Assembly (NCBI GenBank): GCA_018697195.1 | Contig: CM031858.1 | Span: 125,132,594 to 125,196,593 of the forward strand | Direction of reading: 5' to 3' | DNA length: 64,000 nucleotides | DNA from: Certhia americana | Taxonomy: Eukaryota > Chordata > Aves > Passeriformes > Certhiidae | Shown here: one piece after another, positions 41,788-61,900 of the stretch | Position numbering within the stretch: position 1 is the stretch's first letter | Layout of the letters: each line of letters starts with the position of its first letter | Notes under the pieces: model-generated | What the model was told of the DNA's origin: nothing | The model's database searches: none | The model's input: the letters and a program-made list of their open reading frames with translations, nothing else | Position numbers and translations under genes: made by a program

Positions 41788-41838
41788 TCACAGTCTTTCA
41801 TAAACTCTAGTGCAGACAACCCCTTTCATGGCATATTC
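41788..41838 (-). CDS. PMP2: PMP2 exon 4 (coding part)
   Basis: Encodes residues 117-132 and the TGA stop. The acceptor is TATGCCTTAG|GAA. It carries Arg127 and Tyr129 of the carboxylate-binding site, and Tyr118 in place of the mammalian Cys. Confidence 0.92.
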   Translation of the reverse strand, partial: EYAMKGVVCTRVYERL

Positions 41839-44800
41839 CTAAGGCATAAAGGAAAATATTAATATAAACCCTTTGCTGACAGCAGTTGTGTCTGCTGAAG
41901 TAACCTCCGAGGTCAATGAAAATCCATGTTTTACATCTCTACATATTTGCAGAACTTTCAGAGCAAACAGCAAAGCTATTTTTATATTACAAAAAGAGTT
42001 ATTTCTATTTTAACAGCTTTAAACTTCAGTAAGTGGCATTTAATGATGAAAAGATTGCAGAATTAAGCTTGGCTTCCACAAACAAATTTACTATCCTTGG
42101 TGTTATTGCTGGCTTTTCAGAAATATTAGCCCCACCTAGTTTTTACATCATGTCCCACCAACACTTTCAAATTTTCCAAGTAGTAAGGGTTTCTTGTGTA
42201 GAAGCAGAAGTAGCCTGGCTATTTCAAAGGTCAGGCTTCTGGCCTAAAAAACTTTGCTCTTCTGAATCGTAAAATATTTCTCTTGACCCTCTCACCCCAG
42301 TGGCCTTCAGTGGTTGCTGATGACTCACAGCCACAGGATGCATGCAACAAAGGCGACAGGATGTTAAAAAAATACTTCCTTGGTCTGCAAAAGATGAGGA
42401 GTCCTCCACAACCCTGTATGAGGCAAGGGGCAGACAACAGGATGCTGACAGAAGAGGCACCTTACCTCTCTGCTTTATGAAAAGAATTTAATAATTATAA
42501 AATCTTACACAGAAATACAGCTATGAGGAGATACAAAAACAAATCAACCTTCCCACATAAAGCGAGGTTTCAAGAGAGCTGGAGATGGACTTTTTACAGG
42601 GGTATGTAGTGGCAGAACAAGGGGGAATGGCTTTAAACTGAGAGAAGAGAGGTTTAGATTAGATATTAGGAAGAAATTCTTTACCATCATGGTGGTGAGG
42701 CATTGGAACAGGTTTCCCAGAGAAGTTGTGGATGCCCCATCCATGGAAATGTTCAAGGCCAGACTGGATGGGGCTTTGGGTAACCAGGTCTAGTGGAAGG
42801 TGTCCTTGTTCGTGACAGTGGGTTGGAACTAGATGACCTCTAAGGTTCCTTTCAACCCAAACCATTCTATGATTCTACATATGAGAACTTATAAAAAAAG
42901 ACAGTAAAAACAAGCTAACATGTAAAAGTGTAATGCTGCTGACTTCAAACAAGTTGCCAAATTTAGTTTGATTCCAATTTTTAAAAACTTTAATTAAAAA
43001 AGTGAAATCTTAATTTTAATAGCGACCCTTTCAACTAGAGTCCCTAAAATGTTTTATCTCTCTGGCTTGGCCAAGATAGTGAAAACGAAAGAGCTGTTTC
43101 AGGGACAGCAGTACCCTGCTTGTAAATTTTTGTTTCCATTTCACAGGTTTCTATTATTTTTAAACCTTGTTCCTTTTATGAACAATAACCTTGAGACCAG
43201 TACATATGCTGTCAGTTTATGGCAAGTCTGCCAATATAGTCACTTTAACGACAAGTTGCTGTATGCAACAATATTTATGTCCTTCCAGCTGTTTTCTAAG
43301 CTTGGTTTCCTTTTTCTCTCCTTTAATTTGTCTCATTATTCAAAGAGTAAGCCAAAATTGATAGTCTGGTTAGAAACGTACTGAAGGCTGTATCCTTCTG
43401 ACCTTTAGCAGTATACAAGGAACATGAACTTACCACCACCATCTTCCCATCAACAAGTCTTCTCTTTATCGTGGTCTCTTTGCCATTCCACTTCTGCACT
43501 TGCACCAGTGACCCTTTCTCCAAGGTTACAACACTCTGCAAATTCCAAGAGAAGAGTTTTAAACTGCTGGCTGAGCTTTGAAGATTAGAGTAGCAATTAA
43601 CTTTCCGTTCAGCAAGATACATGCTCTGGGATAATGACATGCTCAATAACATTATATTCAGCACTATACTGTTTCTTCTTTCAGTGCTTTATTTCAATAG
43701 TTTGGAAAGCTCAAGGTGCACTAAGGGAGTAGGTAAAATTTCCCCTGGTGTTCTAGGAGATGTTCAGGCCATTCAGAGATCATCAGTCCCCTTACCTTGA
43801 CTTTCCGGTCATCTGCTGTTGTTTCATCAAACTGCTGGCCCAGTTTGAAAGAGATGCTTGTATTTTTGAAGGTGCTTTCAGTTCTGATGGTCACTATGTC
43901 ACCTTTCATACTGATAATCACATCAGGCCTTGCCAGGCCACCTAGTTTCCGGGTAGCTAAGCCCACTCCTAGAAATCAAAACCAAAACAATCATTACATT
44001 CTAGAAGCAAGAAACTTAGTATCCTTTCAAGATTCTTCAGTGGAAGAATAAGGAAGAGTTTCTTCTAGAATACTTAAATGCCTGAATTGGATGAAACACT
44101 AATTCTTTAGATGAGACACTTGAGATGAGACAGAGGTAGGAATGGGAATCTCAGCATTCAGGGGCCGAGGCAGCTCCAGCTGATAAGAGGGCGCCTTCAG
44201 CAAGAAGTAAAGATATACAGCGTTATAGAACTGTGCACATTTAGCTAAGACAAAACATGGTTGGTTTCAAATCTGCATTAATTTCATATAGATAGAATAA
44301 TTAGAAAAATTCAGAGGAAGAGTCTGGTTTTCATAGAAGTTTGTGAAATTCCTTTTAAAAAAAATCCTTGAGAAATCTGAGGATTTGTACCTTTGTTAAT
44401 AGCTGCAAGGAAGAAACTGGACACTGAACTGCCAATATGCTGGTGTGTTTTCATTAAAACATACTGAAGGCTGGGTAATTCCTAAGTTAATAACATCCCT
44501 TAAGGATCTTTGCATATAAACCTCAGTGAAAAGCATGAAATGTAAAAAACGTTGAGGTATAAGGGTGGAAAGCTGCAAAGAGTTTCCAGGAAAATCCCAT
44601 ACCAAAAGCTTTTTGTATTGCCTAGTCCTTTCCAGTCCAGTTCATTGTCTACAGACTATGAGGCTTGGGGTAAGTAGGAATGAAGCCACTGGTGATGATT
44701 GCTGCTTCATAAAAGCAGAAAAGGGATAGCTACAGTTAGGACCTTTGTTAATGCTATGCCATGCTCAGATAAAAAGGTCTGTAAAAAAGGGTATAAAGTT

Positions 44801-45566
44801 ATCTGCGAAGTATAGAACTATTTGCATTAATTATTCCATACTAAGCAATTTCATTCAGATGTTCAGAAAAGTATCTGCAGCTGGACCTTCCTCCCACATT
44901 CACCCTGACTAATTAATTAACTGCAATTCTTTTGTTATTCAGTCTAACATTTCAAATAAAGGGAATCAGTGAATCATTTATATGGCAAAAGAAATGCTGT
45001 AGCTGACTGTCTGTGAACTTGGCATACAGGAATGAAGGCAGCATTAAAATGAAAAACAATGCTTAATTTGTTACATTCCTGGCATTCTTCAGTAACAGAT
45101 AGATTCATTCATAGTATTTAGATGTCTGAAACTACAGTGTCATGAGACATCAGCTCCATTATACATTGTAAATTATCATAAGTCACAAGTTTAATATGCA
45201 ACCAAGAGGAAACATAAAAAAAATCTGTATCTCCATAGAGTACTCTCATGACAGAAAAACATATTAGATCAGTTCATATCAGTTAGACGGAAGTAAATCT
45301 ATAATAGTAATTCATCACTTACCTTTTTCAATTTAGATGCTAAAAAAAAAAATTAAGTTCTGTTAGAAGAGCAATCAAGTGCTTTTTCTTGGCCAGGAAG
45401 AAGGCATAATCCATGAACAGAAATTTCCCAAATGAAACTTACTAACAAAAAAACCCCCAACCAACCAAAAAACAAAACCACAGCATTTCTCACCCAATTC
45501 TTTCATATAGTCATCAAAATTTTCACTGGAGATGAGTTTCCAGGTTCCTACAAATCGGTTACACAT
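41788..45566 (-). CDS. PMP2: PMP2 (FABP8), myelin P2 / fatty-acid-binding protein 8
   Basis: Four coding exons join to a 132-residue cytosolic lipid-binding protein: exon 1 45,494-45,566, exon 2 43,796-43,968, exon 3 43,434-43,535, exon 4 41,788-41,838 (399 nt with stop). All junctions are GT/AG, and the lengths 73/173/102/51 nt are the standard FABP plan. Introns are 1,525, 260 and 1,595 bp. Residues 7-24 fit the FABP signature (G7, W9, N16-F17, Y20). R107, R127 and Y129, which bind the fatty-acid carboxylate in this subfamily, are present, as is portal Phe58. The segments 'RKLGGL' and '[16 protein letters not shown]', and the end '[13 protein letters not shown]', fit PMP2 better than FABP4. 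In mammals PMP2 stacks with membranes in peripheral myelin and carries fatty acids. Oddity: residue 118 is Tyr, where mammalian P2 has a Cys that can pair with Cys125. The start is the first ATG (ACCATGT context) after the promoter. Confidence 0.93.
42566..42878 (+). mobile_element. CR1 LINE copy inside PMP2 intron 3
   Basis: Sense-strand CR1 3' region, running from 'gagagctggagatggacttt' through 'ggcattggaacaggtttccc' and 'tggaaatgttcaaggccaga' to the terminal 'accattctatgattctac'. It is 5'-truncated with an intact 3' end, lies antisense to PMP2, and adds about 310 bp to the 1.6-kb intron. Confidence 0.92.
43434..43535 (-). CDS. PMP2: PMP2 exon 3
   Basis: Encodes residues 83-116 in phase 0, with Trp98 and Arg107. 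The acceptor is TTTGCAG|AGT and the donor GTG|GTAAGT. Confidence 0.93.
43796..43968 (-). CDS. PMP2: PMP2 exon 2
   Basis: Encodes residues 25-82, including the second lid helix and strands B-E, with portal Phe58 and the conserved '[10 protein letters not shown]' segment. The acceptor is TTTCTAG|GA and the donor AAG|GTAAG. Confidence 0.93.
45494..45566 (-). CDS. PMP2: PMP2 exon 1 (coding part)
   Basis: Encodes residues 1-24 and the first base of Gly25 ([17 protein letters not shown]..., helix-turn-helix lid start). The donor is G|GTGAG. Confidence 0.93.
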
Positions 45567-45674
45567 GGTACAGGCTTTGTGAGGCACTGGTCCTGCAGGG
45601 AGAAGCAGTGGTCACAACAGCTCTTGTTGGCAGTCAGAGAGCTAGTGTGCCCAGCTGAGATGTAGTGGTCTCCC

Positions 45675-45715
45675 TTTAAAGAGTTCTGGTCCCCGTGGTG
45701 TCGGGGTTGGCCAAT
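45675..45715 (-). promoter_or_regulatory. PMP2: PMP2 core promoter: inverted CCAAT box and TTTAAA box
   Basis: On the coding strand ATTGG (complement of CCAAT at 45,711-45,715) lies 30 bp upstream of CTTTAAAG (TTTAAA at 45,675-45,680), a TATA-like element about 110 bp before the ATG. Transcription would be expected to start about 25-30 bp further on, near 45,650. FABP4 has the same arrangement. Confidence 0.55.
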
Positions 45716-46019
45716 GGGGGAGGCAGTACCAGGGAGAGACAATGTGCACCTTGTCCAAGGCAGCTGTGCCAGGGCCAAGGCTCTGGGTGACGCTGCCTTG
45801 GCTTCCTGCACTGAATACACCAGGACACAAGGGGCACATGGGGATGGGCATGGGATGCTGGCGCTGCACCCACACAGCAGACAGGGCACACTGCAGTGGG
45901 GTGTCAGTAGCACAGAGACAAACAAGTACAGGAGCACTGCCTCCCTACAGAACCCAGCTCCGACTGTCCCTACAATGTTATTGTCCTGCTATCACCATGT
46001 AGAACAGAAATCTATAACA

Positions 46020-46350
46020 ACTATCTCATCCAACTGACTGACCAATCCAGGGCTGACCAAAAGTTACAGCATGTTGTTAAGCCATTGTCCAAATGCCTCT
46101 TAAACACTGACAGTCCTGGGACTTTGACCACCTCTCTAGGAAGCAGGCTTCAGTGTATGACCACTCTCTCACTAAAGAAATGCCTCCTAATGACAAATCT
46201 GAACCTCCCTTGACACAGCTTTGAACCTTTCCTATCCCTGGACACCAGGGAGAAGAGATCAGCACCTCCCCTCCACTTCTCCTCCTCAGGAAGCTGTAGA
46301 GTGTTACCACTGTTGTCATCACCTCGGTTCTAGTGAGATAAATCAAAGCC
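46020..46350 (-). mobile_element. CR1 LINE fragment upstream of PMP2
   Basis: Antisense CR1 text, including 'aaatgcctcttaaacactga', 'ccacctctctaggaagcagg' and 'ccctggacaccagggagaag'. It lacks the CR1 3' terminus and is diverged. The edges are approximate. It may belong to the same insertion as 46,945-47,128. Confidence 0.75.
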
Positions 46351-46944
46351 ATGTGGATTGTGTGAAGCAACTGTCAAGGAGATGATGTACAGTGGTTTAT
46401 TGTTGTTTTTTTTTTTACTTTCATGATCCATCCTGAAAAGGGTCTGTATTTTTTATCATTTAAAAGCAGAACTGAATTATACTGTTCTGTTTTCTCCCTT
46501 CGCATCAGAGAAATAACCCCAAGCTGTGGGTTCTTCCCTGCACATATTCCAAACAGGATCACAAATAGAAGAAGCAGAGAATATTTGCTGGCTCCATTTT
46601 AGATCTGGGCATATTCAGAAGATCAGTGCATCAATGGAAATCAGCTCTTGTGCTTGACAGGTGGATGGCATGAAAAGAGGCTAACTCATTAAAGGGATTA
46701 TTCTTAGTTCAAACTCACTTGGTGAGAGGCAAGAAGCTTTGATGACTTGGGAGAGGGACATATTCTGTTTTCTTTTTGTCTTTCCGCACATGGGTAGTTG
46801 ATCCACCATAAGGTGAAAGGAGGATTTAAGCCAGCACAATCATATCAGGCATTCCATTCAAATGTGTCCTGCTATTGTCAGACCTCCTCAGGTTTCTGTG
46901 CTTCCATGAAGAGATGCCATGACATCCTTGGGTTCATGTATTGC

Positions 46945-47128
46945 TTGTACTGTGGAGCCCTGAACTGGACCCAGCATTCCTGCTGTGGCCTGCTCAGTGC
47001 TGAATAGTAGGGAAGGATAATCTCCTTCAACCTCCAACACTCCTAATGCAGCCCAGGACATCACTCACCCTTTGCTGCCGACACATGTCCACCTTAGCAT
47101 ACACCAGGACTCCCAGAACATTTTCTGC
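46945..47128 (-). mobile_element. CR1 LINE fragment
   Basis: Antisense CR1 downstream segment ('gtggcctgctcagtgctgaa', 'aatgcagcccaggacatcac', 'cacatgtccaccttagcata'). It has the same strand and the expected order relative to the 46,020-46,350 piece. The roughly 600 bp between them were either inserted later or are too diverged to recognise. Confidence 0.65.
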
Positions 47129-50100
47129 CAAATCAAAATTGAAAGATTCGAGTTTTCAGCATTTAAAGCTGTTTTGTTTTTTTATTTAAGTCCACATTTA
47201 TAGCCATTGTCTAATGGTTGCTAAACAACACACACAAAGAACAAATCCATAAACCACATGTATATGTGACAGGCAGGAATTTAAAGCGTTATAATTCCAG
47301 ACACCTCAAACTGTCTGAAACTACTTAATGCAAGACCACATCAGATGTAATTCTGTCCTTCCCCTCACTAAACCATCTTCCCAGAGAAAATCATTGCTTG
47401 ACACATGCAAAGATTAGGGGCTTCTTTCCAGCTTGGGTGAACAATAGTTATCTGTTTGCCTTTTTTGTATGACTCTAATTTCTGGGTTATGGTGACCCAT
47501 AAAGACTCTTTAGATCTATATTTTAAGGACAGAGACACTGGGATTATAGGCTGTGGGACCAGATTTCTTGTGTTTAGAGTTGAAAGAATGAGATGGAAAT
47601 GGTGGTGTGCCAAGGAGGGTGAGGTCTGGGTCCTGACTTGAAAGCTGTCCTAAGGAAGAAGAGGAACACACTGGAACAGGTAGATGATAGTCTGAGGAGT
47701 GAAATTGTTGTAGTCTTTGGTTTATATGGTGGTTGTGGGAAATAAGAAAGTCTTCAGTTACATATTTTGGTGGCATATACAAAATATTTTTAAACCCCTC
47801 AGTCATAACATCGGCAGGGGAAGCTGAACAGAGCTTCCCTTGCTGCACAGGTCTAATGACAGTTCATGAGGGGAGCAAAAGTCTGAAGTGATTGAAAATA
47901 TAAACAAGGCAGGGAACTCTTTCTATCCCACAGTAGGAAGCAGATGCTGTATCTGTAATAAATAAATAAATGCCAGTCTTTGAAGGTGTCCACACAAAAC
48001 TCTTCTAAAGCAGAGATGCATAATATCACATTTTGTATAAAGAATGGCTAACGCTTTTATCCTATCTCTGGAAATAAGAAAACTACTTCTAAATGAAATT
48101 ATCCATCATTTTCAAGAAATAAAATTAAAATATTCTACCATCGCTCCTCAAACATTCTTTGTTCCTTTATTTAATTGTCCTATCCACATAAAGGCATTTT
48201 AACAAGACAAGGCTGCTGCCTTTGTGAAATGAAAGCTGATTGGGATGTTGTAAAATCAGGCCCAAAGAAATTGAAGAAGAGCAAATTAGTCAGAATAGAA
48301 CAGCTACACTGCAGTAACAGTAACCTTAAGAACAAAAGTAACAGAGAATTATTTATTCAGACAAAACCCCAGTCTTAAGCAGTTTCAAACAATGTTGACA
48401 TTGCTACCATCTATCTCTTTGTCACTAAGAAAAATCAGTACCTTCATTTAAAGGACTTACAGTTTAAAAGGAAAAAGAGCAGGGAATTATATTTTTGTAG
48501 AAATAATTGTGGAAATCAATCTTTTCTTGAAGTTTAAAGGGGAAAAAAGTGTCAAGGATTGTGAGTACATATGATAAGGGAGAGCCTTGATCCCTTTATT
48601 TTGCTTATGGTTGACATAAAACAGGATTTAAAACATTGAACTTGGAGATTGTGAAGAAGCACAAGACTTGATAGAAATAGAGAACTGAAAATTCAGAGAC
48701 TATTTAGAAATAAAGATACTATTCAAAGAAATACAGAAAGTAAATTTGTGTGAATTTCTTTAAAGGAAATATGATCTAGGCAAATTCAAGGCCAAAAACA
48801 GTCTAGATTCCCAGGGGAGCAATGAAGAAAACAGAAATAGAAAGGGAGAACAGAGGTCAAAGGGGGACTTGCTGTGAGGACACCAAGGATGTTTTAGCAT
48901 TGACTCCATGAAGCTGAAGGATCAACCCCCGAAAATGGGGCCAGCAGCCTCCCTTTTCCCTATGGCTTAATTGGAGGGTGCAAATAGCTTCTTGTCCCCT
49001 TAGCTGGAACATCCTACAAGACCAGACTGGGGCAGCTGGGCTGCGGGAACAAATCCAGACTGCGCTGCACACACAGGGCTTGACTGGCCAGGACACAAAA
49101 GTCCTTCAAGTTCTTTCCAGTGAAAATAAATAGTTAAAAGAAAAAGAGATAAACAACTGATAGCTCAATGCTCAGAACAAGCCTTTCCTCATCTTTCTGC
49201 TGAACTGTCAAAAATCTGTAGGCGTGAGTTGCCTTTTCCTTTTGTTGTTCAATAAACTTGTAAAGGAATAGTGAGTGAATATGGTAAGGGGCAGAGATCT
49301 CCTCCTCTCAGCATCCAAGGTGCTTGCTGAGATAAGTGTGCTGCCCATGGGTTTGTAGGGGTTTAGTAAGATCCTTTTTTGGGAGAAAAGAATGCTCTGG
49401 TAACTGACTTTTGGATAATAGTTCATCATGACAGAAGAGAGGGAGGGACCTGTGATGCTCTGCAGGTGAGGACAAGACACTGATCTGACTTTAGCCCTTA
49501 GAAGCATGTGCTCCTACCTCCATCTGGGTCTGAGAGCACACACCTTTTCTTGACAGGGAGGAATCACCTCCATTTATTCAAGCAGTCACAAGACTGCTGC
49601 CATTTTCAGACAATAAACTTAGTCCTTCTTCAGAGAATAAATTCCAAACATATTCATATTCTAAGAAAAGCATCACTAGCACATCCTTATGGTGCTGTCC
49701 CTGTTCAGGTTTGTAGACAGAATGTCACTTTATTGAAATTTCCAAAAATTGAAGTTTTAAGTGTCTTTATTCATTCACAAAGTTCAAAGTCATTCACCAG
49801 GTACCAAAATAAATAATGATGTTTTTAGAAGAAATTACCCTTTGCTGAAATATTAGGCTGTGAATGTTAAAATTGTAACTGCTGGCTGCATTCAAAATGT
49901 AAGATTTCTGGAAAATGAAATCTGCTATATGAGTACTGAAATATTGGAAATTTTGCCTCTGACGGAATATGTCCAAATCTGTGGATGATAGAATACTATG
50001 GGCTGATATTTAATAGCAATTGTAGTTGATTTAAGTCAATGATTCTGCTTCTTATAATCATCACTCTCATGTAGATTTTCTACTTCTAAACAGTAGTTGC

Positions 50101-51498
50101 ATCCTAACTCTTATAAATAATTTTGGTTTTGTTAAGTGCTAAGTACTGTATATATGGAAGATACATATATTCTGATGTGTTCTTCTATCCCCTATGCAAC
50201 TGCTGTTCTCTAAATTGGTGAGATTTCACAAACAATGAAACCAAGGTGAAAACACAGGAGTTGCTTGTTCATGGTTATTTCAACACTTTCTGCAGAATTT
50301 ACTGATAGTCTTTGGCATCACTTTTAAATGACTCCTCAGCTTGTGCACATTGTTAAAGTACTTCCATTTCCCTATCCTGTCATATAAATAGTGCAAAAAC
50401 TTGGGAACAACCTGAGTTATGCGGAGGAAAGTTCAAGTGAATGGGAGGTCTCTGCTGCTAGCAGCAGGGACTCAGCACCATCACCTCTAACAGCTGAATT
50501 CAGGAATGTCAGGAATATGTGGAATTTGGTTCAGAGATCTTTATCATTTGAGATATGGTCCTTTTCCCATTTAGTGGTAAAGGCACACATTTTTATACTT
50601 ATTGACGAGGTTTTCCCTAGAAATCTAATTTTTAAAATTTTTGTCCTTAATTTAAGCCCTCACGGGTGTAGAAATCATGGTTTTTGTAGATGCCAAGTTT
50701 TGAAATAGGAGACCAGGCCTATGGGCAGAAGTTCAAAAATAAGCAGAGGTGAAGAACATGGTGTCCCAAAGGGCTTTGCATCTAGAAAGGCTCATGCTCC
50801 CAAGACTGATCAAGCCTAATGAGCTAGTAGAAAATGCATGTAGATAATAAAGGAGGTTGTACCATCAGCAAACCTGCGCAGACTTTTAGTAAACATGGAT
50901 GTTTTTTTAAGCTATGTTTCTTAATTCAAGGCTTTTAGCCTATCTAGGTAAAAATGAGTTGTTCAAGACAGTAAAATTGACAAAATAATCACAGGTGAAA
51001 GCTCTAACTGCTGTGATTTCTCATTTGAGGTGGAAAAGGAGAAGATCAAGCTACTTCAAATGGTCCCCAGCTTTAAAACCATCTGCATTTGTGCACAGAG
51101 GAGGTGCCTGGTTCCCTGCTCATGTTTGGAAGCCAAAACTGGGTATCCACAGCTCATCCTCCTCCCTGTCCCAGGAAGAACCATCTCTGCTTGAAGCTGA
51201 GAAGAGCAGCCCTATCATTCCCCTGGCTGTGCACAGACTCCTTGCAGGGGGCAGCCCACACACAGCATTCACCAGATGATGTTTTTGTGTTCAGGGGCCC
51301 ATCTGCCACTGTGACACGAGTGACACTCACTGGACTGGCTCCGATGCTCTTTCCACAGGGAGATGGGTGACATGGCTGGGTGTGGGAGTGGCTTTCACAC
51401 AGTGCTTCCCTGCACAGCACCCCTTCCCACACTGCATCACCCCCAAGCCCCTTTCTGACAAACTCCAGCATAAGCACACACTGTAGAAAGCAGAACAT
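47129..51498. other. spacer between FABP4 and PMP2
   Basis: About 4.4 kb that in mammals would be the place to look for FABP9. No FABP exon was recognised here on either strand by eye. The part from 51,000 to 51,480, just 3' of FABP4, is GC-richer with overlapping frames on both strands but no recognisable product. Confidence 0.45.
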
Positions 51499-51504
51499 TT
51501 TATT
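51499..51504 (-). terminator. FABP4: FABP4 poly(A) signal
   Basis: TTTATT on the plus strand gives AATAAA on the coding strand, 159 nt after the FABP4 stop. Confidence 0.65.
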
Positions 51505-51663
51505 GAATAGGCACAACAACTTAGACTAAATGCGTGTAACTGCTTTGGGATATATCTGAAAAATAGTACAGTTCTCTTTAAAATAGATTTGTGGGGCTTT
51601 TCTCCTTTGGTTAAGTTGTTTTATTACAGCTTTAAGCATTAGTCCTGTGTGAAGGTGGCTTCT

Positions 51664-51714
51664 TCATGCTTTTTCATAAACTCTCTTGCAGGAAACGTTA
51701 TTCATGGTGCATTC
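51664..51714 (-). CDS. FABP4: FABP4 exon 4 (coding part)
   Basis: Encodes residues 117-132 and TGA. The acceptor is TTTCCAG|GAA. Carries Cys118, Cys125, Arg127 and Tyr129. Confidence 0.94.
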   Translation of the reverse strand, partial: ECTMNNVSCKRVYEKA

Positions 51715-54700
51715 CTGGAAAGAAAAGATAACTCAATAAGCTTTTAACTCTTAGTAAATGCTTTTTAGTCAGAAGGTAGAAAATTACTTATCTATTTGGA
51801 AGCAGTTTAAGAAAAATTTACATTTCTCCGCCTCTAAAGGCAATTGCTATAAGAGTGAAACTCAGTTTTGAGAGCTTCAGCAACAGAAGACTAAAAAAAA
51901 GCATAGAAGTGAAAGAATTTTCAAGAACTGCTGTACTGACCCCCAGGAGATTTCTAATCTTATCTTAAAAACCTCTAAAGAAGGTGCCTAGGACTTCTGT
52001 GGAGGCTGACTGGACCCTGAAGCTGGGCATTAACCTTTCCTTCCTTCACCTTTTGCAGTTGTGCCTTGTTTTCTTCACAGACATGAGCACAACACATACA
52101 CACACAAAGAGCTGCTAGTGTCAGCCTCTGAATGTTAGGCTATGTCCTCATCTATTTTTCAGTTAGAGCAAACTCTGTTTTGTTCAATCTTTCTTAATGG
52201 AGTTGTTATTAAAAATTATTTCTATTTCTTCTCCTCTGGTCTCTATCCAAAGAAATTTAAATATTGAATTTATGGACACATTATTTTTCCCTAGGGGAGG
52301 GCAGAACTCTTCAGGAATTTTGTGTATGTGTATTATTTTGCAGCATGTAGGAATCTCAGCTGCCTTTTATGAACACAGATTTAAGTCCTGTTCCAGATTC
52401 TTCAAAGAGTGTTTGCTAAAACTGCAGAGCAGAGCTGGGAAGCCCCAGAATGTAGGTGGGCCCTACTTGCACCAAGTCAAGCACAATAGTCTCTGACCAG
52501 ATAAAACCAACCAACAGAGCTTGGACACATGTTTTCTTACTCTAACATCATATTTTTAATGCAGTTGTAGGTGATGCATAGCAGGATTACCACAGATGAC
52601 TCTAAGCCTCTGCTGAAGATGAGCAGGAGTCTTCTGCATCAGCCTAGAGTGGATGTATTTAATGTGGGCTTTTCTAATACTTCTTCTATACTGTCCAGGA
52701 CTTAGAGATTCTGATTTATATATATGTTTCCCCCAACATCATAGGGATGTTGGGTTTTTCTTCCTACACTTTGACAACGATGTCTTGCTATGGAGAACAG
52801 GCACCTCCATAGCACTGCATAACTTTAACAGCCTTTCAGTTTTAGCCTACACTTTAGACTCAATCTAGATTTGGTGAGAGGCTTTTTACCAAGTGCACAG
52901 AGCCCTTTCAGACGCTTTCCCTCCCTGTGTTTGAATCCAAAGTCATACATCAGCTAAACATGAATTCTGCGCACTGAATACAGCAATTAAGTAACAAAAA
53001 TTAACTTACCACCACCAGGTTCCCATCCACCACTTTTCTCTTTATGATAGTCTCTTTTCCATCCCACTTCTGCACCTGGCTCAGCACACCATTGTCTAGG
53101 GTTATGACATTCTACCAAAGTAAAAAAAACAAGGTGTGGCTGTTTCATCAAGTTGCTCTGGTATCAGGAGAAGACTCTCCAGGTCTAAACAGCACTAAAC
53201 ACAAAGCACCCATAACAGTTTTACCTGTGGAGGCCCTGGATGTCAAAATCACATCTCTGCTCTGCTGCTCCCACATCCCTTTTGAGAGATGTAATTGCAA
53301 AATGCCATTTCAGGACTCACCTTTGTTTTTCTGTCATCTGCTGTGGTCTCATCAAACTCTTCACCCAGCTTGAAAGAGACCTCTGTATTTTTGAAGGTAC
53401 TTTCTGTTTTGATGGTTATCACATCACCATTGATGCTGATAGTTACATTAGGCTTGGCCACACCAGCCATCTTCCTGGTAGCAAACCCCACACCTGCAAA
53501 TAAGTTAGGGCACTATGAAATTTTTATCTTTCCTCAATCTTTTTGTCTTATACATTGGAAAAAAACCCCTCAGTACTTTTTCCCCTATTGCTTTCTGAGT
53601 GTTAATCATTCTATATTACAGAGATTCTTTTGTAAAGTCTCAGTTGGTAGTGCTATGGACCAAGCTGGGTGGGTTGATGTAAGGAAATTCTCTATCCTGT
53701 CATTGTCAAAATAGCAAAAGCAGTATTTTGAAGACTGAGATTATATGAATGCCAGATATTTGCACACAGACTTGTTCAGAATAGCTTTCATAGCTCATAC
53801 TCTAAGCTGTGTGCTAGTTGTATCTAAATGTAAATAAGCAGGAATACATGACAGTGCCTGAGCCACGAAAGCAACAAAACAAACAAAGAAGGGAAAAAAA
53901 CCCAAGCTTTTTTATATTTACAAGTGGGTAGGTTGAATATAAGGAAATGATTAAGAAATTGCTGGCAATGTTTATGTCCTGAGTAAAATCTGGAGTAAAG
54001 ATTAAGAGTGCAAAAGTCCCACTCATTGAAAGCTGTCAGCATAAGTTAAAGTATTTTACCCCTAAACTGCAAATACACCCCCCCCCCAGCTTTTTAACAC
54101 GTACTAATTGAATCAGTGCAAGTTACCCCCTGCTTCCTTCTCACTAAGAGAATATTGAAACCTTTCAAATCCCAATTTTAATACTAAGCGAGAAGTCTGC
54201 ACCTTTAGAGGAAAGTGTTAGACATCCAATCTTGCAAGTATCTGCATGAATCCACACAATTGTCTTTGTTAATATTCACTGGAGGCAGCTACAGAATTTC
54301 ATTCAATATAATAGCCGTGGCAATTAACTGGTGTCCTAATCCAGTAGCATTTTAAAGTTGTTTAGGTGTATTGCTCATAGACATAAGGAAACTCACTGCT
54401 TTCTAGCATCACACAATTTGTGTGTCCAAGGATAAAAGCTAATTAATAACACAAAATAATCCAGTGATGTGTTTTACTTCAATTTATAGCACTACTAATA
54501 AGACATGCATAGACTTGGCTTACCTGAAATTATTCCCATCAATAAAAGTTTTTCTGCATTATAGAAATTTAACCCCACTTACTGAAGCAGACAAATTCTC
54601 CAGTTTAAGACTATCTGATCAAAACAGTGGATTAAACCTCCCCAATAAACAGCACAGTCAGAAAAAGCAAGTAAAAGAGTAAAGTTCAAAATTGGTATTC

Positions 54701-54816
54701 CTTCCCTGTTCCAGATACAAGAAATTGAAATAACAATTCTCACCCAGTTCTTTCATATAGTCCTCAAAGTTTTCACTAGAAAGGAGCTTCCAGGTGCCCA
54801 CAAACTGGTCGCACAT
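51664..54816 (-). CDS. FABP4: FABP4, adipocyte fatty-acid-binding protein
   Basis: Four coding exons (54,744-54,816; 53,321-53,493; 53,010-53,111; 51,664-51,714) encode 132 residues, 399 nt with stop. Introns of 1,250, 209 and 1,295 bp have GT/AG ends. The FABP signature spans residues 7-24. Portal Phe58, Arg107, Arg127 and Tyr129 (fatty-acid carboxylate site) are present. So are Lys22, Arg31 and Lys32, the basic cluster linked to nuclear import of FABP4, and Cys118/Cys125. Segments such as '[19 protein letters not shown]', '[16 protein letters not shown]' and the end '[10 protein letters not shown]' identify FABP4 and not a paralogue. It shuttles fatty acids in adipocytes and macrophages. 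PMP2 lies downstream on the same strand and is probably a tandem duplicate. The start codon is the first in-frame ATG after the promoter. Confidence 0.95.
53010..53111 (-). CDS. FABP4: FABP4 exon 3
   Basis: Encodes residues 83-116, with Trp98 and Arg107. The acceptor is TTTGGTAG|AAT and the donor GTG|GTAAGT. Confidence 0.95.
53321..53493 (-). CDS. FABP4: FABP4 exon 2
   Basis: Encodes residues 25-82. The acceptor is TTTGCAG|GT and the donor AAG|GTGAGT. It contains Arg31-Lys32, Phe58 and the '[10 protein letters not shown]' segment. Confidence 0.95.
54744..54816 (-). CDS. FABP4: FABP4 exon 1 (coding part)
   Basis: Encodes residues 1-24 and the first base of Gly25. The donor is G|GTGAG, identical to that of PMP2 exon 1. 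Confidence 0.95.
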
Positions 54817-54905
54817 TTTGTCAGGCTAGAAAGATGAGTTCCACAGGTTCAAACAGAAATGCAGGACAGGAGAATATAATGAGCTCCAGGAGAAGAGTAC
54901 TTATC

Positions 54906-54949
54906 TTTAAAAAGGAACCGTGGCCACATGATGATCTGGGATGACCAAT
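54906..54949 (-). promoter_or_regulatory. FABP4: FABP4 core promoter: inverted CCAAT box and TTTAAA box
   Basis: On the coding strand ATTGG (complement of CCAAT at 54,945-54,949) lies 33 bp upstream of TTTTTAAAG (TTTAAA at 54,906-54,911), about 90 bp before the ATG. Order, orientation and spacing match the PMP2 promoter. Confidence 0.55.
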
Positions 54950-56039
54950 GAAGAGGGAGTCCCAGTGCCCAGTGTTTTTCTTCCTCCCCTACCCCTCCTC
55001 TGCCAGTGGGTCACAGTGCTATTATTCATATGCCTTTACTAGCACAAAGATCACTGTCTTGTTCTTATTTAATTATTTTTGTCATTCAAGAACACTCTAC
55101 CTTAAAGGCAAATAATTAGATCAAACTACCTTTCAGAACAAAAAGGGAGGCTTAAGCTCAACCCACAAAAATTAATGTTCTCTTTCCTACTCTTTCATTT
55201 CAGTCCACTATATCAAATGGACACAGCTCAATTCCAAGATTTTAAGATCCAAAATGCTCATTGGGATAATTTAGTTTGCTTTCAGCACCCCTGCAATCAG
55301 AAATTTCCTCTAGGGAAATACAGAGCTACAGGAAGAAGTGGATTTGGAGTACAACGAGGGAATGCTGGGGTTATAGAAGGCTAAGGCAATAAAATTGCTT
55401 CCTTGATTGGGATCTACTTGTCCTTGCACCACCTGAATCAACTTAACAATAGGTCTGTAATATGCTTTTATGTAATGGAGACGGAACATGGGGTTCTGTG
55501 GGAAGAAAAGTAACAATACAGAGAATTTCTCTCCCTTTTACTCCCATGCTTTCAGAAGAGCTATGTCCCAATGACTAGCATTTTGAGCAGTTATGGCATA
55601 AAGCTAAGCTCTAATATTGACCTACTAGAAGTCCCTGGACACTTAATTTCTTTTTGTTTGTGCTGTTCAGGCATTAATTTTTTTGAGGCAAGTTATGCAC
55701 AGGCCTTACAAAATGGGTTCATCTTGACTGATCCTCTAAGCCCTGTCGTACTTCAGTTCACAAAAAAACTATCAAAAAGCAGTCAATCAAGTTCTTAGAC
55801 CTTACTTTGTCTATAATGTGCTATTCCAATGGCCAAAAGCAGCTAGTAAGTGCATAGTCCAGCTCCTGCAATTTGCTTTATGTGGATTTCCAGGAATTAC
55901 TCTGCTGGTTGCTAGGCATCGAAATTGTGGACCACGTTTTTCTACTTGTTGTGTTTGTACGTAACAATGTTATAGAAGAGTTATTTATATGAGATTGCAA
56001 GATCATAGGGGTTTGTAAGGGAAGGGAAGTGAGGAGGTC
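54950..56039. other. FABP4 upstream region
   Basis: AT-rich 5' flank of FABP4 and left part of the spacer to the plus-strand FABP relic. No exon or repeat was recognised. Any FABP4 enhancers would be expected here, but no motif was clear enough to call. Confidence 0.4.
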
Positions 56040-56655
56040 TCCAGTGCATCCTTCCACTCAGGCAAGGTCACCTCTGATCCCATATCACACTGCTTAGAGC
56101 TGTGGCCTTTTGTGGATCAGAAAACTCCCAGGATGGAGCCAGCACAGTTTCCCTGGGAAACACACACTCCTGCCCAGCTGTCCCAAGGGAGAAAGGATCT
56201 CCTTATTTTCTCTCTGAACCTCTTCACTTTCAGCTTTTATTCACAATTTCTCATCCCCCCACCATTCACTGCCTGGTTCCAACTCCTTGGTCACTTTCCC
56301 ACATGTGCTGAGGGCTGCTTGTAAGCTCTCACAAAGCTTGGTCAGGAAGACCAACTTCAGTCTCACAGCCTCTTCTCATGGGGCAAGTGCTCCAGACCCC
56401 TGAGAATCCTGTGGGTCCTCTGCTGAAGTCACCACAAAACTGGATGCAGTACTCTGGATACACCCTAATGACTGCTGAGGGGCAGAATCACTTCCATCAA
56501 CCTGCTGGCTGTACTTCTGAACACACAGCACAGGATGTTTTTGACCTTTCTGCTGCCAGGTCTCAGCTCACTGCCCACCAGGACCCTGAGGGCCTTTTCT
56601 GCAGGGCTTCTCCCTAGGCAGTGTGTCCCCAGCCTGGATTGCTCTGGGAGCTGAG
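56040..56655 (-). mobile_element. old CR1-type LINE copy
   Basis: The plus strand reads as diverged antisense CR1: 'ctggatgcagtactctggat', 'gctgaggggcagaatcactt', 'gacctttctgctgccaggtc' and 'accctgagggccttttctgc'. It lies between the FABP4 promoter and the plus-strand FABP relic. The 5' part (56,040-56,330) is the least certain. Confidence 0.65.
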
Positions 56656-56968
56656 CATGTTTGTACACATATAACTAGTTATCCCTTTGTGCCTTTAAGA
56701 TATCAGTCTATGGGGACTAGAATAGCTAATCTTAGATTTGTCCTATACTTTTAATTTTTTTTTTGCGTATTCACTGATTTTGGCCTAATCTCAAAATAAA
56801 TAAAACTATATTCTAATTATGAAGCAGCTGGTGCCTTTTCTGGTTGTTTTTTTGCAGAGTGTCACATGCTCAAGTGTTCTTTAAAAGGAAATTCTGAGGT
56901 CCCTCAAGTTTGTGTCATTATCTTGAGGTACTTTTACTTCAGATTATTAGCTTGAGAAACTCTGTATT

Positions 56969-57039
56969 GTGTGTGAACAGATGGTAGGAACATGAAAACT
57001 CAAATCCAGCATTTAAATAATGAGAACTGAAAGAACCAA
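56969..57039 (+). pseudogene. FABP relic exon 1
   Basis: Frame from GTG (once ATG): V C E Q M V G T stop K L K S S. Nine of these 14 positions equal FABP4 residues 1-14. The sequence GTAGGAACATGAAAACTCA matches PMP2 exon 1 at 17 of 19 bases. TGAAAGAA near the end corresponds to the codons for Met-Lys-Glu. About 2 nt are lost in the middle, and the donor is mutated from GTGAG to ATGAG at 57,040. Confidence 0.82.
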
Positions 57040-57722
57040 ATGAGGATTGCTGCAGTGGCCCAAATAGAAAGGCTGTGATGTGGATGAAATCAGGTCCTGG
57101 TCGTACTTTCTTGCCTTTTGGGAACTATTCTGTGTGCAGCTTACTACAACTAGCATTCATGTGTTTGGAGGAGAAATAGGGCTTTTATATTCAAAGCTAC
57201 AATCTGGGAGAGGAAATTAGCCTTCCTTTGGTGTTAACAGTTGTCTGCAATGCTTGTGATATTGGAAGAGCTTTTGGGGAGAGTAGAAGCATCTTTCCAT
57301 GTACATCAATTTGGAGCAGACAAGCACACCCTCCCCAGGCAGTCAATTACTTGCACTTACTTCAAGTGAATCTGAGCTATTTGTAGATATCTTGTGAATG
57401 TGGTGACGCAAAAATGCAAGGAGAAAGCCAGCTTGTGGGTTGACTTGCATGTTTACTTCAACAAGCAGCTATCTGTGAGCACACTTATGGTCCTCTCTTG
57501 GAAAGTATCCTACCAATGGTATCCTTTCCCTCAAGAGAGACTTCCAGTAACAAGGGATAACAAGAGACTTATGGCACTGATGTCATCTAATACAAATCAT
57601 GCCTCTCACTGGGGCAAGTGCTTGTAGTCTTCTGATAAAGACTAGAGTTTTTAATGGACATGAAAAAATCAGTAGGGCTTCTGAGCCTGGAAGTTTAAGC
57701 AAGAGATTCGTTTCACTTGCAG

Positions 57723-57891
57723 AAGTGTCTTGACAGCAAGAGCTGGGAAATCTGGCTGAACAGCCCTGTGGTTATTGACACTGATGTGATCTCATACCAC
57801 CAAAAACAAGGTCATCCTCAGAAGTGTAGAAACCTCCTTCAAAATAAGCATAAATTTTGAAGAAACCACAGCAGGTAAGAGGTAAACCAAG
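57723..57891 (+). pseudogene. FABP relic exon 2
   Basis: Follows TTTCACTTGCAG. The frame changes within the exon. 'LGNLAEQP' matches the RKLGNLAKP region, then GATGTGAT matches the codons for D-V-I. A last block of 29 codons contains SFK, FEETTA, R and TK, with 12 residues identical to FABP4 54-82. Stops are present and the final donor reads AAAAGG. Confidence 0.85.
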
Positions 57892-58063
57892 AAAAGGAAG
57901 CTGGTGAGGGTCCAGTACAGGAAATGCTGACAAAGAAAATTCATCTCTTAATCCTGATATGAACTGATGCAGCTCAAGTCTGCAAATAACAATGATACAC
58001 TGTCTGCAATGTGGTCTTGGGGTGCTGTGACATTTGAGGATAGTCCCTTTTTCAGGGTATGCA

Positions 58064-58153
58064 GAAGTAATCACAGAATTCTGTGGTTCTATGAAGTGTA
58101 ACAGCAAAGCAGCAGCTGTGCAGGAGAAATCAGTAGATGGGAAGGTAGCAATT
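58064..58153 (+). pseudogene. FABP relic exon 3
   Basis: One open frame of 30 codons. Allowing a 12-nt deletion (the VQVQ codons), 11 of the 30 residues equal PMP2 exon 3, including V-T, G-S, K-x-N-x-K and V-D-G-K. The donor is lost (ATGGGT). Confidence 0.82.
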
Positions 58154-58269
58154 ATGGGTTAAATCTTACTCTGTGACTCAGAACAAAGGTAGAGATCTAC
58201 TTGAGATAAACTGCTTTTCACAAAAATAATCACAATAGTAACCTCCCTTTGGCTCTTTCGGGCTTGCAG

Positions 58270-58311
58270 AAGCAATGAGGCTCTCCCACTAGAGTATGTG
58301 AAAAAGAGGAT
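58270..58311 (+). pseudogene. FABP relic exon 4
   Basis: Follows GGCTCTTTCGGGCTTGCAG, a good acceptor. CACTAGAGTATGTGAAAAA reads T-R-V-C-E-K (TRVYER in PMP2, KRVYEK in FABP4), and a preceding ATG fits the conserved Met120. A frameshift lies between the two blocks, and the stop codon position is no longer a stop. The 3' limit is set from the family length. Confidence 0.7.
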
Positions 58312-58496
58312 GTTTATTTCTGTAGTGAAGATCTGCCACTTAGGAGACCTTTTGACTGAGCATTGTGCTAAACCTTCCCTGGTACTTTATGAAAGCAAGG
58401 AATTGTCAAAGTAAAGACACATTTTTCTCTTGAATGTGAAAACATAAGTTAACAGTTATGACTGCTTAAAAGGAGGGCTCTTTCTCGAGTCCCTCC

Positions 58497-58951
58497 TGAT
58501 GCCTCAGGTTTTAGCTATTATATTTTTTAGACTCTGTGCTGTTTCAGTGAGTAGTTTTAAGTTTCATATTCAGTGCTACTAAGCTCTCTTCATAGTAGAG
58601 ATAGGCATTATTCCATTATTAATAGATAATTCCTTCTCTAGTTTGATACCAAGGACAACTTTCAGGCCCAAGTATGAAAACAACGATGAAGTGAGAAGAA
58701 AAAACAAAGAGGATGGAGCTTCAAAACCTGAAGCTATGGTTGTACAATTGATTCTAATATGCTAATATTAGAACCAGAATGTATAAAAATGTGACCTGGG
58801 TGTCCATTTTGTGACCACTTTGGGGGCATCTTGGGTGTGGTCTGTCTGGACTCTTGTGGCCTAAGAGTACCCATTGAGACCTTTCAATAAATACCTACTT
58901 TAACCTTTGCCCTGTCCAGTCTCTGTTCCAGGTCAGCCCCAGAAGGCATCA
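58497..58951 (+). mobile_element. solo LTR, 455 bp
   Basis: Starts TGATGCCT and ends AGGCATCA, a perfect 8-bp inverted pair of the TG...CA kind, flanked by direct CTCC repeats (58,493-58,496 and 58,952-58,955). Inside lie a TATAAAAA box (58,782-58,789) and an AATAAA (58,886-58,891) about 100 bp later, the usual U3-R order on the plus strand. The text after AATAAA ('tacctactttaacctttgcc', 'tgtccagtctctgttcc') resembles avian ERV U5. There is no internal proviral sequence, so this is a solo LTR left by recombination. A 4-bp duplication suggests a gammaretrovirus-like (class I) element. Confidence 0.8.
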
Positions 58952-58955
58952 CTCC

Positions 58956-61900
58956 TTGCCCCAGAAGGGAACAGAGTAAAACTCTGTTGAGTGCTCTGGC
59001 TGTCAAACTGGTGACTACCAATGAGCAGTAGTGTATTGTGCTCACTCACTTGTCCCCATAGTTCTGCTATTCTTTGGATAAAAAATGGCATGAAAAGACA
59101 TCCATGCTCAATTCCATGGCTAATGATATTGACAATGACTTCCTCTGAACACTTCCTTAAAAGGAACCTGGCCTCTGTGTGGGGTTATTACTGGCACAGG
59201 TGGCAATATTCGTAGTAAGAAGAAATATGTATTCTTGGCAAAGCTACAAAAAGGGAGCTTTTTTCTTCTGCAAGGGGGGAAACTGTGGCTTTGATGCAAG
59301 TTTCTTGTTCAGACACAATAACTCCTATGGAGAAGATGGACTATAACAGGCCTCATATTAGGAAGGAGGGACCATATCACACTTTCTGGTACTGCTGCAA
59401 TTTAGACAAAGCAAAAACCTTTCTTAATGGTTTCCTGGTTAGGTACCAGATTGGCAATTTGTTCTAAGGCCCCAGAGTAGCTACAGACAGGTGATCTTAT
59501 CCTGGAGCAGACAAGAATAGGTAAAGGAACTCCATCTCTGCTCACAAAGTTGCTACTTTCATTTCTGATAAACATTTGAAACAGGTCAATTGCCTTGGAC
59601 TTCTGCTTAGTCAGGAAAAGGTACAACTAAAGCTTCAGTACTCATAATGTGACACACTGACTACAAAATGCTGGCTTCAGTTCAAATACAGCTTGAAAGT
59701 TCAAGAGGCCAATTGGTTTTCAGTAGACTTTTTCTCACTCCTGGGGGAAGAGGTGAGCAGGAGAAAACAGGTCCTTTTTCCTGTGCTCAGTCCCCAGGAT
59801 CAAGCTGATGCTCCCCCACTTGTGATTGTGGCTTCAGACCACACTCAGAACTGAGGGTACTATTGCAAATGGTCACTTTGTTGAAGGAGTCAGATTTGCC
59901 AGCAACAACAGATCTGCTGTTTCCTGGAGTGGGCATTGGCACCACTCTACCCAGTCACACTGCTGGGCTGTGACATTTGGAGACATCAGGCTGGTGTACC
60001 CCAGCACCTGCTCTTTTACTTTTCATGATTCTGGGTTCTTTTATTTCATCCTGAACTTTAGGCCAACCAGTGAGTCTCCACGCCCTTAAATAGGTTTCCA
60101 ATATCTGAAGGCACGACCGTGAAAATTAAAACACTTAAAAGGTGTTTCTGAAACACGAAGCTAAGTTTGTGGTAAAGCTTTTAGGAGCAGAAATGAAATC
60201 TCATAACTCTGAGGCATAGTAAGATGAAGCCCGAAACAAAACCTGGTGGTTGACTCCATTAACTTGAAATTAAAGTATGCATAGTTATGTTTTCTGAACT
60301 TGCTTTAAAGATGAAGAAAAAATGCAGATATGTCTAGAGAATAGAGCAAACCTCTGGGCCCTTGCCTTCTCCTGATTCTGGCTTTTCTCAGCAGATGGCA
60401 TGGCAATAATATATTCTCTCATACGTCTGTGGCTCATATTCTCAGGATTGCTATTCCTGAGAAGACCTGGAATTATCATACTCTCCTCTAACATGTATAT
60501 CACTCATTCTTGGAGCAAGGCAATCAGCAGTGTGAATTTTATGAATTGCAGGTTATGCAATCAGAAAAGTGAAAAAAAGACAAGTATTTGCATATTTGGT
60601 TTGTTGTTTTATTTCTTTGCAATAAGAAGAAATGCAGGTACACTAACTCTGACAGGCATGCAGGTGATGGGCTTCCAGGAGATAATGTGGACATTTCTAT
60701 AAGAATATTCAAAATATCAGAGGCTCACCTCATATATCCTGTATTCAGCAAATGCCAGAGTGGGATTAGTGATAAATCGAACTTCATGATTTAAGAATGT
60801 TTGTATGAGAGAAGATCTCAATTTGCTGGCTATAATGTAGGCATTGCAGATGCTTCATGTTCCTAACCATCTACAGATTTCCCTCATCTAAAGAACAAGT
60901 TTAAAGTTGTCTAAGGTTCTTCTGATATTCAAATCTGTCCAACTTTTTTGCAGGTATGGTACAAGTCTTGCATTTAACATCAGGGCTTCTCCTCTTGAGA
61001 GTGTATAACAAAAGTTGGCCTTTTTCTGAATCCTGCTTTGTCTTGTCCATGGACTTACCTCAGAGCACATAATTCCTTGCTGTTCTTCCCCTCTACCTTC
61101 CCCCCACCCCACAAATAAAAAGATGCTTTTCTTTTCTTACTTTTTTATCCCTAAACTTCACTCTAAATTTAGATATTGCAGCATAGTTGCAAATGAAGAA
61201 AGCAGTATGTTTCCCAAAGAACTTTTGGATTTCCACTAGCAATTTGAAGACTTGCTAGAAGACTAGACTGGCTAATACTATTCTGAAAATCCCTTTGTAG
61301 GACTTCCCCAGATGCACTTCTGAATAATCCCAGATCATCCATCTGAAACACTCTCTCAAAGCCTTCATCTGAACAATGGAGTAACACTGTTGGTTACATC
61401 TACTTTGGGACTGCACAAGAGGCCTCCATCCCAGCTCTGCCTGCTTTCTACAGTTCATGCAATACCACCCATTTTATTTCCATACAGATCTGCATTTAGA
61501 AACCTTCCACTCTTTTGTTTGTTTCTTGTTAAATATTTTTTATCAAGCTGAAGAAAAAATCTTCGAATAGGGATGAGAGTAGTGCATGTTGGTAACATGT
61601 AATATCTTGTATATTTAAGCTATTCCTATCAGTGGTTGTCCTCCTCTCAACAGCTGCCCTCTTGTGAAGCAAGAGCACTCCCACAATTTCACTTGTTTCT
61701 AACCCAGCAAAGAAAGAACAAAGTGTAAAAGCAGTATTTAAACAAGACTAAAAAGACCCTGTACAAAACATTTAAGCTCTGCTGAACCTGCACTCTGAGA
61801 AAAATATACGTGGGATTGGCAGCCCTGTTTATGCATGTCTGCCTTCTGCGTGCTGCAGTTTCTGGCATCCTATGCTTTCAATCTGACAGCTTGCTCTGAA

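Follow-up and report, generated by a model that had tools for sequence, protein, structure and literature searches.

The window analysed here, a 64,000-nucleotide stretch of the Certhia americana genome, contains two intact genes of the FABP family and the remains of a third. PMP2 (FABP8; 41791–45566) and FABP4 (51667–54816) each comprise four exons and lie on the same, minus strand, the coding parts of FABP4 falling at 54816–54744, 53493–53321, 53111–53010 and 51714–51667. The window FABP4 protein displays 97% identity to an emu-represented cluster with 324 member sequences, and its close relatives include those of the passerines Zosterops, Pitangus and Turdus; the window PMP2 clusters with the PMP2 of birds in the tree. 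The third gene is a four-exon FABP relic at 56,969–58,311 on the plus strand, delimited by spliced profile alignment and exon-wise tests. It is positioned head to head with FABP4, with 2,153 bp between the two start codons, and is directed away from it. An earlier, sequence-only reading of this DNA had proposed four FABP-like blocks in the correct order on the plus strand, taken as a decayed third FABP gene opposite FABP4; coordinates, order and strand were all confirmed, and the gene itself proved well supported, its profile score of 42.2 bits lying far above those of shuffled sequence and of other tiles of the window.

The region around the relic contains further features. The segment at 56040–56660, between FABP4 and the relic, resembles an antisense CR1 LINE fragment, and 58790–58960, around TTCAATAAATACC, looks like part of the LTR of an endogenous retrovirus. 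A search of Rfam returned zero matches at gathering thresholds. A tblastn search of the window for IMPA1, the gene beyond FABP12 in mammals, found no match at E 1, and the relic's slot in the cluster could therefore not be anchored. Gene models of birds (P0010, P0026) and of a thrush (P0123) join FABP4 exons 1–2 to PMP2 exons 3–4, or continue from FABP4 into PMP2. Such models may reflect read-through splicing between these neighbours (41791–54816) or errors of annotation.

Exon anatomy and decay of the relic

FABP genes have exons of about 73, 173, 102 and 51 nt separated by introns at fixed positions. The relic retains this layout, with exon remnants of 71, 169, 89–90 and about 42 nt and three AG acceptors, of which exon 4 is the weakest part; these lengths and acceptors agree with the sequence-only reading. 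In exon 1 (56969–57039), GTG replaces the start codon, TGA stands at the position of Trp9 and the frame is broken, while donor 1 is lost through an AT in place of GT at 57,040. The intron 1 remnant that follows (57040–57722) ends in TTGCAG. Exon 2 (57723–57891), which is found by tblastn and at the DNA level as well as by the profile, carries frameshifts, one short loss and a TAA near its 3' end, and its donor is lost. Exon 3 (58065–58153), located through single-protein queries, has suffered a short loss and retains its AG acceptor, with its donor displaced or lost. Exon 4 (58270–58311), seen at the DNA level and weak at the protein level, retains a TTGCAG acceptor, is broken in frame and has no recognisable stop codon. 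The GTG start, the TGA at Trp9, the further stops and the indels that had been described earlier are all borne out by the sequence and the profile alignment; the claim that all three GT donors were lost holds for donors 1 and 2 but is slightly too strong for donor 3, where a GT is present four bases on (GGGTTAAAT), albeit in a poor site. An FABP gene has an open reading frame of about 132 residues, whereas stops interrupt frame 1 of the relic and stops and frameshifts interrupt its aligned reading. The relic cannot code for an FABP now and is a pseudogene rather than a gene.

Because the exons are short and decayed, the similarity was measured against chance using a profile made of the window FABP4 and 105 of 120 homologues, namely those of 128–137 residues. 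The profile-to-DNA alignment allowed frameshifts and stops and accepted introns solely near the three fixed FABP sites, at 10 bits each. The segment 56,700–58,999 scored 42.2 bits, an optimum that was left untraced and that runs to 58,994, beyond the relic; an overlapping tile from 56,351 scored 41.9 bits and ended at 58,144, within exon 3. A tile lacking exon 1 still reached 38.5 bits, and one containing exon 1 alone reached 26.1 bits. In 150 dinucleotide shuffles the maximum was 22.1 bits (mean 16.4, sd 1.6), and in 94 of the 110 window tiles, the 16 at FABP4, PMP2 or the relic being omitted, it was 21.3 bits; the similarity to FABPs is therefore beyond chance. Plain tblastn with FABP4 over the whole window picked up just two exons of the relic, exon 2 at E 0.022 and exon 1 at E 1.7.

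The pooled profile was also run on each exon separately, in 600-base regions, the controls being 100 dinucleotide shuffles and 134 tiles covering the first 40 kb. None of these shuffles or tiles equalled exon 1 (26.1 bits) or exon 2 (36.0 bits). Exon 3 was not significant, as its region gave its best match elsewhere and 8 of 100 shuffles and 14 of 134 tiles did equally well or better; exon 4, at 14.1 bits, was equalled or exceeded by 5 shuffles and 6 tiles. Single-protein queries with tuatara P0096, gharial P0120 and the window PMP2 located exon 3 at 58,067–58,153 with no shuffle in 100 as high, compared with one in 100 for turtle P0092 and four in 100 for the window FABP4, which aligned with the second part of the exon only. 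Exon 4 was not significant at the protein level, 7 (P0096), 49 (P0092) and 17 (P0120) of 100 shuffles scoring as high. At the DNA level, exons 2 and 4 with their flanks each exceeded all of 300 mononucleotide shuffles, both against FABP4 and against PMP2, and exon 1 with its flanks exceeded all of 300 dinucleotide shuffles. Exon 3 is without support at this level, since 174 of 300 mononucleotide shuffles scored as high against FABP4 and its alignment with PMP2 (3 of 300) was out of register. Taken together, these results make exons 1 and 2 secure, exon 3 well supported and exon 4 likely genuine. A profile search had been proposed as the check on exons 1–3, and with it exons 1 and 2 were significant; exon 3 became so only with single-protein queries.

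The weakness of exons 3 and 4 in the pooled profile might suggest that the blocks are chance matches or derive from a repeat, and the conceptual protein finds no homologue: its read-through translation, searched against 5.8 billion proteins, shared words with 5 candidates, none of them at E 10 or better. Such an origin is nevertheless refuted, within the shuffles and tiles run, by the spliced-score and exon-wise controls, and we assign it a negligible probability; no shuffle or other tile approached the spliced score, the order, strand and spacing of the blocks are consistent, and no tandem repeats were found at the relic.

Mode of copying and parentage

The missing introns that mark a processed (retro) pseudogene are not seen here, as three introns are retained at FABP positions. 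Upstream of exon 1, the pattern positions of a promoter-like box, TTCTTTAAAAGGA (56877–56889, plus strand), suggest a former promoter; in the relic, the TTTAAA core of the TTTAAAAGG box stands at −89 relative to the former start codon, and a TTTAAA core is also present upstream of the window FABP4 (−95) and the window PMP2 (−114). In addition, the similarity between the relic and FABP4 extends ten bases beyond the exon 1 donor into intron 1. The retained introns, the homology across donor 1 and the promoter-like box are those of a non-processed duplicate, and they indicate that the relic is a copy made at the DNA level. A retrocopy is ruled out by the introns at FABP positions.

To assign the relic to a class, a set of 56 FABP proteins was compared with it over 104 aligned residues, two of the proteins covering 101 and 102 of these. 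The closest is tuatara P0096, an unnamed protein with 53 of 104 residues identical to the relic, followed by turtle FABP4-like proteins (up to 51), PMP2 (up to 49; the window PMP2 has 45), bird FABP4 (up to 47, the value of the window FABP4), FABP12 (up to 43), FABP9 (up to 42), human FABP5 (34 of 102) and FABP7 (31). The tree pairs the relic with P0096 at 88/88, a placement that is unstarred and involves a very long relic branch of 1.59 changes per column. Under a neutral codon model, in which the codons of a candidate protein drift neutrally into the relic, the tuatara protein again gave the best log likelihood of all the proteins tried, −321.4, compared with −331.7 for the best complete turtle paralogue and −326.5 for turtle P0088, from which some residues are missing. 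The best PMP2, that of a mammal (a tenrec), reached −332.7, gharial PMP2 −340.0, bird FABP4 −340.9, the best FABP12 (turtle) −345.6, bird PMP2 −349.1, FABP9 −357.4 and FABP5 −368.8. Turtle P0088 and human FABP5 were left out of the codon bootstraps. In 2,000 replicates, best against best, the tuatara–turtle class was ahead of FABP4 in 1,956, of PMP2 in 1,816, of FABP12 in 1,997 and of FABP9 in all 2,000; by class means the corresponding counts were 1,950, 1,801, 1,992 and 1,989, and 1,666 against bird FABP4 alone. Without the tuatara protein, the turtle class led PMP2 in 1,459 of 2,000, a thin lead. The nearest class among the tested proteins is thus that of tuatara and turtles.

Sister-group AU tests, whose p values are weakened because the groups were chosen once the scores had been inspected, rejected bird FABP4 (p 0.002) and sauropsid FABP12 (p 0.007) as partners of the relic and did not reject turtle class B (0.46), all FABP12 (0.43), bird PMP2 (0.36), FABP5 (0.28), all PMP2 (0.22), bird and crocodile FABP4 together (0.18) or FABP9 (0.14). 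These data have led us to regard the relic as probably a unitary pseudogene, left by an old FABP4-like gene whose class is still alive in the tuatara (P0096) and in turtles. Among the proteins tried, P0096 ranks first in both identity and codon likelihood, turtle class B scores best in exon 2, and the four-exon layout of the relic is expected in both; the tuatara and turtle proteins (P0096; P0092, P0084, P0046, P0089, P0160) are intact, whereas the relic is dead. Bird FABP4 and PMP2 share with the relic the exon sizes, the intron positions, the promoter-like box and the neighbourhood; they differ from it in being intact and on the opposite strand, and are poorer parents by likelihood.

Three other parents have to be weighed. 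Descent from PMP2 or a PMP2 ancestor, by an old inverted duplicate that landed beyond FABP4 and then died, would account for the first and third exons: exon 1 with its flanks is nearer at the DNA level to the window PMP2 (34.0) than to the window FABP4 (27.5), and exon 3 gives its best protein scores with gharial PMP2 (50) and the window PMP2 (46), the window FABP4 scoring 34. The AU value for the PMP2 clade (0.22) and the exon 2 scores of mammalian PMP2 (86–92), which are near that of the tuatara protein (96), also agree with it. Exon 2, however, which is the longest, is better matched by the tuatara protein and by turtle class B (up to 99) than by sauropsid PMP2 (54–77 in birds, crocodilians and turtles, 80–81 in lizards), the codon likelihoods of PMP2 fall 11 to 35 units below that of the tuatara, and PMP2 is the loser in those 1,816 bootstraps; we consider this origin unlikely. 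An inverted duplicate of FABP4 arising in the archosaur or bird line fits the position of the relic next to FABP4, the AU value for bird and crocodile FABP4 (0.18) and exon 1, where the protein score with the window FABP4 (43) is among the best, but it has against it the rejection of bird FABP4 (0.002), a likelihood 19.5 units below that of the tuatara and the absence of inverted repeats longer than 28 nt from 50,000–61,500, and appears improbable. A recent inverted copy of FABP4 is ruled out by the same AU value together with the lack of such repeats.

Less probable again, and indeed very unlikely, is a lost FABP12 standing, reversed, in the place of FABP12 beside FABP4. In mammals FABP12 lies beside FABP4 on the side occupied by the relic, as seen in the fused mammal model P0125, where FABP12 is upstream of FABP4; crocodile and turtles possess FABP12 (P0162, P0129, P0149), the grouping with all FABP12 has an AU p of 0.43, and the portions available of two surveys list no chicken FABP12 (PMC7193176, PMC6928644). 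Exon 1 of the relic differs, however, with FABP12 proteins scoring 14–22 against 36 for the tuatara and 43 for the window FABP4 (turtle class B, 23–33); sauropsid FABP12 is rejected as the sister group, FABP12 is beaten in 1,997 of 2,000 bootstraps, and in the mammal model FABP12 is on the strand of FABP4. A FABP12 origin was the initial idea, founded on the mammalian gene order and on exon 2 scores, and was dropped on the evidence of reptile FABP12 sequences and of the exon 1 misfit. The sequence-only reading had offered two origins, what is left of a gene that birds have lost or an old inverted duplication; the former fits better, given the rejection of bird FABP4 (p 0.002) and the likelihood of the tuatara protein (−321.4) against those of bird FABP4 (−340.9) and bird PMP2 (−349.1), and the latter still finds room in the p values of 0.18 and 0.22.

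Proposed history and relatives in other vertebrates

We propose a model in which an old FABP4-like gene would have been duplicated at the DNA level together with its promoter, introns and four exons, the copy coming to lie on the strand opposite to FABP4 either because the duplication itself was inverted or because a small inversion followed. An ancestor of birds would then have carried a working gene at this spot, which may subsequently have been disabled and have drifted for a long time. The neutral model fits best with 0.4 changes per site between the relic and the tuatara protein, and birds accumulate 2–3 changes per site per billion years. Taken together, and with the rate uncalibrated, these values would place the total divergence of the relic, part of it as a working gene, very roughly at 130–200 million years. 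A more speculative and rather doubtful extension is that the common ancestor of birds, crocodiles, turtles and the tuatara had an extra FABP class that, being born by inverted duplication, had always faced FABP4 head to head, and was multiplied in turtles, kept in the tuatara and lost in archosaurs; the paired promoters might then once have formed a shared two-way control region of FABP4.

Living members of the class were sought with a class profile, which included human FABP12. Among the 120 matches listed of 2,470, neither birds nor crocodilians contributed a protein of the tuatara–turtle class; the ten bird proteins among these were FABP4, PMP2 or joins of both, and the crocodilian proteins were the PMP2-like P0120 and P0162, named FABP12 in UniRef. 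Crocodile FABP4 (P0030) came from a separate FABP4 protein search. Since an intact class member would be expected to rank above bird FABP4, its absence among the matches listed points to loss of the class in archosaurs. In turtles, several kinds of FABP4-like protein occur (P0046, P0092, P0089, P0088, P0160), under names such as “adipocyte-like” or “myelin P2-like”, and the joining of some within one gene model (P0121, P0001, P0128, P0082) suggests a tandem family. Turtle copies are joined to one another in P0121, P0001 and P0128, and not recognisably to FABP4, which implies that some of them share a strand. P0159 at first sight resembles a join to FABP4 exons, but the 49 residues at its end are closest to P0088 (43 of 49), with FABP4 proteins nearly level (42 of 49), and it therefore gives no turtle order relative to FABP4.

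The mammalian genes had been said to share one strand, in agreement with the fused models P0125 (FABP12–FABP4), P0122 (FABP4–FABP9) and P0124 (FABP9–PMP2, its first half named by eye); the thrush model P0123 runs FABP4, then PMP2. So far as these models tell, the strand of the relic is opposite to the mammalian cluster order, and it would represent a datable rearrangement beside FABP4. Two FABP surveys, in the parts available, confine FABP9 and FABP12 to mammals (PMC7193176, PMC6928644). Proteins of Crocodylus porosus (P0162), Pangshura tecta (P0129) and Carettochelys (P0149), however, form a group with the FABP12 of mammals (four proteins; 99/96), and by this grouping FABP12 is present outside mammals. 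The crocodile FABP12, the turtle proteins that group with it and the separate FABP4-like family of turtles together make the mammal-only picture look incomplete for the sauropsid cluster.

Pseudogenes and losses are common in tandem gene families, and the relic, as a dead gene of a well-known one, bears on the history of that family. If it does derive from an FABP4-like gene of sauropsids, early reptiles had in their adipocyte/myelin FABP cluster a gene now missing from birds, and a fat-handling gene was lost directly beside FABP4, the adipocyte FABP. Gene losses in birds are well known from papers such as those on STK33 (PMC4509753) and PMC4290089. STK33 resembles what is proposed for the relic, as other vertebrates retain the gene and some birds have only a dead copy, and differs in that it is, by the title of that paper, alive in palaeognaths, whereas the relic is known from one bird sequence. 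The titles and abstract openings of the literature surveyed contain no treatment of an FABP relic in birds, and a term search of the main text of PMC4290089 for “FABP” returned nothing. Lastly, two IMG/VR contigs (L001:5001–5156 and L002:4213–4368) showed a weak 35% match to residues 12–61 of FABP4 (E 2e-4, among candidates only), which may reflect an FABP-like gene in a contig that is viral or was mis-sorted.
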